Shown: positions 48,724 through 51,533 of the stretch, one piece after another
Layout of the letters: each line of letters begins with the position of its first letter
Position numbering within the stretch: the stretch's first letter is position 1
NCBI RefSeq assembly: GCF_900142545.1
Contig: NZ_FRBF01000017.1
Coordinates: 1-64,000, forward strand
Source of the DNA: Fibrobacter sp. UWT2
GTDB taxonomy: Bacteria; Fibrobacterota; Fibrobacteria; Fibrobacterales; Fibrobacteraceae
Reading direction: 5' to 3'
DNA: 64,000 bases
Position numbers and translations under genes: made by a program
Notes under the pieces: model-generated
Database searches by the model: none
What the model was told of the DNA's origin: nothing
Seen by the model: only the letters and a program-made list of their open reading frames with translations

Positions 48724-48757
48724 CACCCCGCAGGCTCTAGCTTGCGGGGCGTTTCTA
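48724..48757 (+). terminator. Rho-independent terminator after GH54
   Basis: ccccgcaggc and gcttgcgggg pair around a four-base loop and are followed by cgtttct. It lies about 25 nt after the stop codon. Confidence 0.85.
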
Positions 48758-48780
48758 TTGAAAGGGTGGATATCTGACTA

Positions 48781-48810
48781 AATGAGACCTTCGAAGAAGT
48801 TGTTACCCCA
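48781..48810 (-). pseudogene. Remnant of the 3' end of a second fumarase gene
   Basis: On the minus strand these 30 nt read GNNFFEGLI and stop, identical in protein to the end of the intact fumarase at 48922, but with five base changes, all synonymous or in the stop codon (tag against taa). Homology ends at the Gly: the intact gene has VDDK before it, the remnant has HW. Presumably it is the tail of a lost or replaced allele. Confidence 0.75.
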
Positions 48811-48820
48811 ATGAGACTCC

Positions 48821-48893
48821 GTATTTGGCTATCGCATTAAAGAACTTACGACGCCAAATACTCCGCGCTTCTACGGCTCGTTAATACGAGCCG
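48821..48893. repeat. Two inverted repeats between fumarase remnant and fumarase
   Basis: gtatttggc (48821-48829) is inverted as gccaaatac (48853-48861), and cggctcg (48874-48880) as cgagccg (48887-48893) around ttaata. They could form RNA hairpins or be the arms of a short insertion. They fill most of the gap between the remnant and the intact gene. Confidence 0.65.
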
Positions 48894-48921
48894 CATCCGC
48901 TTGGCGCAAGGGCAACATCTT

Positions 48922-50559
48922 TTAAATCAGTCCTTCAAAGAAGTTGTTGCCCTTGTCATCCACGAGGATGAATGCGGGGAAGTCCTTGATGGTAATCTTG
49001 CGGATGGCTTCCATGCCGAGTTCCGGGAAAGCCACGATGTCGTTGCTCAGAATGTTCTGTTCAGCGAGGATGGCTGCCGGACCGCCGATAGAGCCGAGGA
49101 AGAATCCACCGTACTTCTTGCAGGCGTCGGTCACGTCCTGAGAGCGGTTGCCCTTGGCGACCATGATCATCGAAGCACCCTTGCTCTGGAAGCGCATCAC
49201 GTACGGGTCCATGCGGTTAGCCGTCGTCGGGCCGAAGCTACCCGTGGGCATGCCTGCCGGAGTCTTGGCCGGGCCGGCGTAGTAAATCGGGTGGTCAGAA
49301 ACAACCTTCAATACGGTCTTTTCTTCGTCCGTGAGTTCTTCGCCGCGTTCCTGCTTGTCGAAGATTTCGGCAATCTTCGCGTGTGCCATGTCGCGGGCCA
49401 CAATCATCGTGCCCTTGAGGCTAAGGCGAGTCTTCACCGGATACTTGGTGAGGTCGGCGAGCACTTCCTTCATCGGACGGTCGAGGTCAATTTCAACAGC
49501 CGGAGCGAGGTTCACGGCGTTGCCAGCCGGGATGTAGTTTTCCGGATGGTGTTCCATCTTTTCGAGCCAGAGGCCGTTTTCGTCAATCTTTGCCTTGATG
49601 TTACGGTCAGCAGAGCAGCTGACGCCGATAGAAACTGGGCAGCTTGCTGCATGACGCGGAGCGCGGATCACGCGAACATCGTGCACCAGGTACTTGCCGC
49701 CGAACTGGGCGCCAATGCCCGTCTTCTGGCAAATGTGGAGAACCTTTTCTTCCATTTCAAGGTCGCGGAAAATACGGCCGCCTTCAGAACCGCTCGTCGG
49801 AATATCGTCGAGGTAGCCGCAGCTAGCGAGCTTCACCATGTGGGTGTTCATTTCGGCAGAGGTACCACCAATCACGATGGCGAGATGGTACGGAGGGCAA
49901 GCGGCTGTACCGAGAGTTTTCACCTTTTCAGCAAGGAACTTTTCCAAGGACTTCGGGTTGAGGAGCGCCTTGGTCATCGGCCAGTAGTAAGTCTTGTTAG
50001 CAGAGCCACCGCCCTTAGCGACGAACAAGAACTTCATTTCGGCACCTTCTTCAGCGTGGATATCAATCTGAGCCGGGAGGTTGCAACCGGTGTTCTTTTC
50101 TTCGTACATCGTCAAGGGAGCAATCTGGCTGTAGCGAAGGTTCTTGGTGGTGTAAGCGTTGTAGACACCTTCAGAAATCGCTTCGGCATCGTCGAAACCC
50201 GTCCAGACCTGCTGGCCCTTGTGGGCAACGCAAATAGCCGTACCGGTGTCCTGGCAGAACGGGAGGATGCCCTTGGCGGCAACGCAGGCGTTCTTGAGCA
50301 TGGTGAGGGCGACAAACTTGTCGTTGTCCGAAGCTTCCGGATCCTGGAGAATCTTCGCGACCTTGGCCGTGTGGGCCGGACGGAGGCAGAATTCAACTTC
50401 TTCGAAAGCGGCCTGGGCGATCTTCGTCAGGGCTTCCTTGGAAACCTTGAGAATCTTCTTGCCTTCGAATTCGGCGACGGAAACGCCTTCCTTGCCGAGG
50501 TTCACGTATTCGGTAGTATCTTCACCGTGCTGGACGGTAGCTTCGTATTTGAATGCCAT
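48922..50559 (-). CDS. fum: Fumarate hydratase, class I (iron-sulfur)
   Basis: A 545-residue class I fumarase, colinear with E. coli FumA/FumB. Conserved segments include CQDTGTAI near residue 100 and GAQFGGKY near 285. [16 protein letters not shown] near 310 together with the CQDTG cysteine contributes to the 4Fe-4S cluster. Others are [13 protein letters not shown] near 415 and the end [19 protein letters not shown]. In a succinate-forming anaerobe it most likely runs malate to fumarate in the reductive branch. Start at MAFKYEA is chosen by alignment with FumA; no Shine-Dalgarno sequence is present. The adjacent remnant shares its C-terminus. Confidence 0.96.
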
Positions 50560-50852
50560 AGTAGAATCTGGGGTTGATTGTGTCATTGCAGTCGTCCCCG
50601 GTGTCTGGCCTCACGGAGGTGAGGGCGGGGAAGACATTTTATGCGTGTAATTTAAAATTTCTGACGCTTTTGGTCTAAATATCCCGCCCGAATGGAGCGG
50701 TTTTACCCGTGGCAGTGTGAGGAATATCTCAAAATGGCGATGAATGGACGGAAAATGGCGACAATTTGTACTTTTTTTATAAAAAAGTTGGCAGACAACC
50801 GAAATTTGTACTATTTTTTACATCGTTAAAAGTTTAAACTGAAGAGGAAACT
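50560..50852. promoter_or_regulatory. Divergent region between fumarase and the Ala/Pro-rich protein
   Basis: No gene is seen. The ten-base word aatttgtact occurs twice, at 50763 and 50803, each followed by a run of T, in front of the plus-strand gene. TTGGCA (50788-50793) followed by TACTAT (50809-50814) with 15-bp spacing is a possible promoter. Fumarase promoter candidates (TAAATT-like) lie near 50650 on the minus strand. Confidence 0.4.
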
Positions 50853-51533
50853 ATGAAGATCAAGACTCTCATGTTGGCAACTATGCTTGCCTCTGCTGTT
50901 GTTTTTGCAGCCCCGGCTGCCAAGGACGCTAAGGCTGCCGCACCGGCCGCCAAGCCCGCTGCCGCTGCTCCGGCTGCTGAAGCCGCCAAGCCGGCCGAAG
51001 CTGCTGCACCTGCCGCAGCCCCCGCCGCTGCTCCGGCTGCCGCTCCTGCCAAGGCAGAAGCTGCCAAGCCCGCTGCCGAAGCTAAGCCGGCTGAAGCCCC
51101 GAAGGCTGAAGCTGCTAAGGCTGAACCGGCCCCCGCCGCCGCTGCTCCGGCTGCTGCACCTGCCGCTGATACTGCTAAGGCTGCCGAAGCTGCTCCTGCT
51201 GCCGAAGCTGCCGCTGCCCCGGCTGACTCTGCTGCCGCTCCTGCTGAAGCCGTAGCTGCCGAAGCTGCTCCGGCTGACACCGCCAAGACCGAAGTGCTCG
51301 AAGCCAAGGCTGAAGAAGCTCCGGTTGACAGCGCCGCTCTCGCCAAGGCCGAAGAAGAAAAGAAGGCTGCCGAAGCTGAAGCTAAGGCCAAGGCCGAAGA
51401 ACAGGCTGCTCTCGAAAACAGCTCTGCCGGTTCTGCCAAGTCCACCATCATGGAAAACCCGTGGGAATTCCTGATCGTGTCTGCCGCCTTTGTTGCCTCC
51501 GTGCTCGTGATCATCTTCACCGGCAAGGACTAA
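50853..51533 (+). CDS. Ala/Pro/Lys/Glu-rich envelope protein with C-terminal membrane helix
   Basis: A 226-residue protein with a signal peptide (MKIKTLMLATMLASAVVFA) and about 165 residues of low complexity built from AAPAAK, KPAEA and AAPADTAK units. A final segment ENPWEFLIVSAAFVASVLVIIFTG forms one membrane helix next to the C-terminus. The middle would be an extended, highly charged rod that may span the periplasm, similar in build to TonB/TolA linkers, though no interaction domain follows. gaagagg precedes the ATG and a strong terminator follows, so it is monocistronic. The opposite strand is open over the same length, but only because of the alanine-rich coding. No known function. Confidence 0.8.
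   Translation: MKIKTLMLATMLASAVVFAAPAAKDAKAAAPAAKPAAAAPAAEAAKPAEAAAPAAAPAAAPAAAPAKAEAAKPAAEAKPAEAPKAEAAKAEPAPAAAAPAAAPAADTAKAAEAAPAAEAAAAPADSAAAPAEAVAAEAAPADTAKTEVLEAKAEEAPVDSAALAKAEEEKKAAEAEAKAKAEEQAALENSSAGSAKSTIMENPWEFLIVSAAFVASVLVIIFTGKD

Follow-up and report, generated by a model that had tools for sequence, protein, structure and literature searches.

Why should the end of a gene be present twice, once attached to the gene and once more a little beyond its stop codon? The case considered here is that of the class I fumarate hydratase (fumarase) gene of Fibrobacter sp. UWT2, which lies in a stretch of 64,000 nucleotides of contig NZ_FRBF01000017.1 (positions 1 to 64,000, the whole of which is called the window), and whose last nine codons and stop are repeated at 48778-48807 on the same (minus) strand. 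The intact end reads GGC AAC AAC TTC TTT GAA GGA CTG ATT TAA and the copy GGT AAC AAC TTC TTC GAA GGT CTC ATT TAG, and the five changes, as an earlier sequence-only reading of this DNA had stated, are all silent or in the stop codon, i.e., four synonymous and one TAA/TAG. That reading was also right that homology breaks off abruptly beyond the duplicated end and that a gap separates the two copies, but the gap it gave as 112 nt is, from intact stop to copy, 114 nt (48808-48921), the difference coming from the counting of junction bases. Both of the inverted repeats it saw there are present (48874-48893, and 48821-48829 with 48853-48861), accompanied by a third at 48907-48921, which repeats fumarase's own end in reverse complement, and the interval folds with a z of -5.3 against shuffles. 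That reading likened the case to a scar at wecE; self-comparison of the window, within 3 kb, gave no other nearby same-strand duplication of this kind, paralogous genes and one low-complexity gene aside. The answer proposed is that the interval probably belongs to a family of integrative elements in Fibrobacter, very small and non-coding, which restore the end of the gene they enter.

Which of the two ends, then, belonged to the gene originally? Comparison was made among 80 Fibrobacter genomes, one per species, with the source genome denoted G000, and the structured part of the interval, its body, is present at 18 of the 39 fumarase ends read. Where it is absent, in G040, the gene end reads ...GGACTGATCTAGTCGAAACCACCCTTTCAATAGAAACGCCCCGCAAGCTAGAGCC, and the window has the downstream copy, the ‘remnant’, and then ...TAGTCAGATATCCACCCTTTCAATAGAAACGCCCCGCAAGCTAGAGCC, so that the downstream DNA is shared; five more empty and occupied pairs share their downstream DNA in the same way (G039/G002-G065, G018/G008-G054, G017-G045, G001-G066 and G031-G011). 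The earlier reading had suggested looking for genomes whose actual fumarase end is the remnant, and these are such genomes. The intact end in the window runs into the insert (...TAAAAGATGTTGCCCTTGCGCCAAGCG...), a sequence that the empty genomes lack. Between intact ends and remnants at fumarase, to which the codon tally was restricted (a tally over all targets contains misframed and junction codons and was set aside), there are 30 synonymous codon differences and 0 non-synonymous, though, coming from related species, they are not 30 independent events. Since the differences are of this kind, both copies must have diverged while coding, and therefore the insert brought its gene end from elsewhere. 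By comparison of sequences, it is the ‘remnant’ that was native to the gene, and the ‘intact’ end that came with the insert. Two possibilities had been raised, that the gene was replaced or that an insertion restored its end; an insertion bringing its own gene end is thus the part that stands, and replacement of the whole gene is the part that falls. Mapped on a poorly resolved fumarase tree, occupancy is patchy, with 9 changes, and fumarase is too conserved for a comparison of its identity with that of the body to serve as a test of transfer. The inserted piece is 144 bp long, non-coding and folded, and its parts, with their surroundings, are these:

48922..50586, minus strand: class I fumarate hydratase, an open reading frame (ORF) with an NCBIfam class I fumarase match, E 3.6e-241
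48952/48953 side: insertion point, CAA|GGG (the bar marks the point), with a one-base ambiguity
48922..48952, minus strand: restored gene end, or block, GGGCAACAACTTCTTTGAAGGACTGATTTAA, which from the empty-site comparison would have arrived with the insert
48907..48921, minus strand: ‘guide’, matching in reverse complement, at 14/15 nt, the fumarase sequence that spans the insertion point, recognised by its inverted repeat and by own-target specificity at six genes
48815..48904, minus strand: structured body, 90 nt, CCAAGCG-hairpin1-AGCGCGGAG-hairpin2-CGGAGTC, supported by pair covariation and by covariance model R1 at 109.8 bits, a score not independent of the window copy, the model being built from the window body and related sequences
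48874..48893, minus strand: hairpin 1, CGGCTCGT-ATTA-ACGAGCCG, from folding and covariation
48821..48861, minus strand: hairpin 2, GTATTTGGC ... GCCAAATAC, with a variable loop, from folding and covariation
48808..48814, minus strand: 7-nt right end, TCATTGG, from the body to the displaced gene end, its length of 7 kept at fumarase, dppC and PFOR (both described below)
48778..48807, minus strand: remnant, the displaced native fumarase 3′ end, from the duplicate and the empty-site comparison
48724..48751, no strand assigned: native terminator-like hairpin downstream of the remnant, seen in the sequence and also beside the empty site in G040

Is the fumarase insert alone of its kind? Within the window the covariance model finds no further copy, but matches to it, weak ones included, occur in 69 of the 80 genus genomes, and of the other genomes of the phylum that were searched only one has a match. 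In the body 99.6% of the cells are paired, 11 pairs have changed on both sides, and 0 of 500 shuffles scored as high. Two sub-classes can be told apart, GCCAAGCG...GCGGAGTC and GTGAG...GCGGTC. A pattern scan across genomes found body-matching contigs that bear Fibrobacter names, and those matches that it gave outside Fibrobacter had no support from the covariance model. The weak body matches may not all share one origin. The flanks of 88 copies were read. Targets named by NCBIfam are an Opp/Dpp-type permease (called dppC), pyruvate:ferredoxin oxidoreductase (PFOR), trpS, a murC-like ligase, pta, argF, pheS, adk and argJ; a tRNA search adds tRNA-Arg, and leuB and a Xer-type recombinase (xer) were named from their sequence and conserved residues. 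The source genome itself has a second copy, at the end of leuB (L245, G000:C2:142615-142702), where the element supplies the C-terminus IAALA by codons that also build hairpin 2, the leuB ends of empty genomes being AALK, AALG or KALA; a third body match there, G000:C6:57448-57532, is weak at 34 bits. The copies at the 3′ end of xer (L121 of G045, 1279-1461, and L125 of G058) alter the C-terminus, that of G058 with a repeated Asp-Arg-Thr-Gly. Past the murC-like remnant in L104-L106 are more short GTGCGGTC-type pieces which resemble decayed units.

Where the copy is forward-oriented, the start of the displaced end at dppC and PFOR is exactly 7 nt past GGAGTC, and at fumarase the right junction is 6-7 nt past it, a repeated G blurring the position. 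The flanking-repeat score is above 99% of the null for 38 of the 88 copies; a number of others fall just below that level with the block in the same place, and several have no block. The duplicated length varies by target, from about 18 to >100 nt, and tends to end near a stop or terminator. What singles out the target? At six target genes the element carries, 5′ of its body, a stretch whose reverse complement is found in the target, spanning the insertion point: CAAG|GGCAACA at fumarase, ATG|GATCC at dppC, GTG|GATGCCCGCT at PFOR, CTGATG|(G/T)GCGC at the murC-like gene, GAAAAG|GCC at trpS and AAAGG|CTCCAG at tRNA-Arg. This stretch lies no more than about 3 nt from the body at the first three and is more distant at the other three. 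When each of the six guides was compared with each of the six targets, every guide did best on its own, with own scores of 13-26 and all other pairs at 6-14, trpS having the weakest own match. At the triplet just outside the duplicated block (these triplets were chosen by eye) the guide matches the gene side in every family, and the remnant side is fully matched only at trpS, where both sides are identical. With the displaced block, too, the guide forms pairs, and a cruciform was predicted in 5/5 sequences tried, with fold z of -3.3 to -6.4.

Units that are not identical stack in tandem, and are 92-154 bp in length. At fumarase, G058 has two full units at 143-bp spacing, and inner 99-bp units, which differ in their loops, number two in G065, three in G054 and five in G066. 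At tRNA-Arg(ACG) a 298-bp non-coding unit occurs twice (L115, G037:C1:110574-113359), and the 3′ end of the tRNA recurs with each copy; at leuB in G047 the units are about 94 bp and each begins with the leuB end, and at xer in G045 there are two of 92 bp.

How might such a unit move? Its order from the insertion point would be substitute gene end, guide, two-hairpin body and 7 nt, after which comes the displaced native end, and the substitute end would keep the host gene intact. The mobile form may well be a folded single strand, the likeliest form for a unit that is too short to hold a gene and that would make a very small double-stranded circle; the predicted fold of guide, body and block is a cruciform, at the base of which guide and block form a stem. 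A recombinase supplied in trans would then join the element where the guide matches the target, and possible analogues for this joining are folded single-stranded attachment (att) sites and guide-directed IS608 DNA. A bolder suggestion, offered tentatively and rather doubtful as it stands, is that mobile elements of a new class are involved: folded cassettes without genes, about 100-300 nt long, of single-stranded DNA or RNA-derived, programmed by their guide into the 3′ ends of conserved genes, carrying a substitute end, and retargeted by changing only guide and gene end.

Several observations weigh against seeing an integrative element here. Searches for a partner among tyrosine recombinases, Y1 transposases, reverse transcriptases and IS110 recombinases found no enzyme (serine recombinases and TnpB/IscB were not searched). 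The unit has no integrase or other coding gene inside, and the source genome has only two tyrosine recombinases, presumably XerC and XerD. An orphan tyrosine recombinase of 278 amino acids, of Phage_int_SAM_5 type, is encoded at L134 1447-2283 and in about 36 other genomes, not beside the element; it does not co-occur with the fumarase element, is absent from the source and from several occupied genomes, and was rejected as partner. The Y1 HUH transposase (0 in G000, 27/80 genomes, with no association with strong element matches) was likewise set aside, its one adjacent case in 30 IS loci being a chance neighbour. Reverse transcriptase (17/80 genomes) and IS110 recombinase (6/80) are absent from the source genome and show no association with the element. 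No integron integrase was found in the source genome, and inspection of the junctions CAA|GGG, ATG|GAT, GTG|GAT and AAG|GCC showed no attC core (RYYYAAC/GTTRRRY); as to an element integrated by Xer at dif (IMEX), a dif candidate, TGCCGATAATGTATATTATGTAAA, no more than a candidate with its 3 mismatches and similar control counts, is unlike the element junctions. The partner enzyme may have been lost, may be borrowed, or may be of an unsearched kind. At leuB and xer, besides, the body is antisense to the gene, opposite to the forward layout, and hairpin 2, which holds the gene's last codons, itself serves as the target-complementary stem in place of a junction-spanning one; with this second layout, a single rule does not yet cover all copies. 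The guide in G061 and G019 is not an exact match to the host codon, which fits transfer from another species but also decay, and with one genome sampled per species no strain-level gain or loss was seen.

Would other explanations do better? The nearest is that the interval is the scar of a larger tyrosine-integrase island, its attL and attR left behind after cargo and integrase were deleted. The layout of such islands is alike, in that crossover falls on the 5′ side of a block of identity which restores the gene end, and that the 3′ ends of tRNA and protein genes serve as sites. Yet no copy read with a recognisable block has cargo, at several target genes, the body and the 7-nt junction are constant, tandem units are of 92-154 bp, and the scarcity of tyrosine recombinases in the source genome does not help; nor is there a viral, phage or plasmid counterpart, as class 1 body patterns have no match in viral contigs, class 2 patterns have five chance matches there that lack covariance-model support, and blastn against phages and plasmids gave nothing useful. 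A scar is therefore unlikely. Improbable also is a host RNA element, a hairpin or terminator of the 3′ untranslated region useful to the genes it follows and spread between species by homologous recombination. Position in that region ahead of the native terminator, strong conserved stems and the excess on one strand of G-U over A-C pairs (35 vs 5, mostly from one position) would suit it, but at a number of genes, leuB and xer among them, the body is antisense, so that the mRNA is not in every case the strand that folds, and displaced native ends, exact junction and target-complementary segment would be left unexplained. The window stretch and ten loci have no Rfam match.

Two simpler ideas fare worse. 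Transposition with a target-site duplication of about 30 bp, the downstream copy of which then decayed, could call on those copies that are identical or nearly so (30/30 in G011, and G015), but it is contradicted by the synonymous-only codon pattern at fumarase and ill at ease with a duplicated length that varies with the target and tends to end near stop or terminator, and is very improbable. That the gene end was merely duplicated in place, or that the likeness arose by chance, has only the shortness of the repeat in its favour and can hardly be credited: empty sites, and recurrence of the same body at other genes and in many species, refute it. Chance is excluded since many other genomes have this arrangement at the corresponding place, and on the non-chance origin of the duplicate the sequence-only reading is borne out.

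If gene-end-restoring integration is correct, few integrative elements on record would be as small as these, which lack any gene, have many conserved targets and show a visible target-complementary segment; no published description of such an element was found in the literature searched, which does not exclude one elsewhere. C-termini of housekeeping proteins are changed as well, LeuB from AALK to AALA and Xer being given a different tail. Should the complementarity direct insertion, Fibrobacter would have a compact guide-directed DNA-insertion system whose enzyme is directly searchable. Elsewhere in the window an ORF at 50853-51533 encodes a 226-residue protein very rich in Ala, Pro and Lys, of low complexity and with a C-terminal hydrophobic segment.

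How does the Fibrobacter element stand beside known systems? Its enzyme test fails for each family tried. With integron cassettes and their attC sites it shares small non-identical tandem units and a stem at the recombination point made from two separated segments, but its junctions have no attC core seen, its source genome lacks an integron integrase, and its targets are gene-specific. REP and BIME sequences with RAYT are also short dispersed hairpin elements downstream of genes, whereas no Y1 or RAYT is present in the source genome; REPs are not known to replace gene ends. Their length is 20-40 bp (PMC3733652). IS110 elements have in their bridge RNA a non-coding segment that matches the target (PMC11208160), and to that extent are similar, but the Fibrobacter element is gene-free and 74/80 genomes have no IS110 recombinase.

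Two more families bear comparison. In IS608, of the IS200/IS605 group, a guide situated 5′ of the base of a hairpin pairs with target sequence at the flank (PMC5934647), and with that group and its non-autonomous derivatives the element shares hairpins near the ends, while its target-complementary segment may correspond to such a guide. The Fibrobacter guide, however, has a length of about 7-19 nt instead of 4 nt, is plainly antiparallel, is close to hairpin 1 in 3/6 targets with a different pairing geometry, and belongs to an element that carries a gene end; the Y1 transposase is absent from the source genome and uncorrelated with the element. Tyrosine-recombinase islands and prophages share with it the direct-repeat att layout, a substitute gene end, a displaced native end and tandem accretion, so that of the hallmarks of such elements, flanking att direct repeats, restoration of the gene end and displacement of the native one are all found, and an encoded or linked integrase is not. 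Unlike those islands it has no gene at all, is 92-300 bp, has its guide beside a structured body, and has no integrase that could be found. By analogy, then, the Fibrobacter element would act as an integrative element that repairs the gene it has entered, with a guide that recalls IS608.
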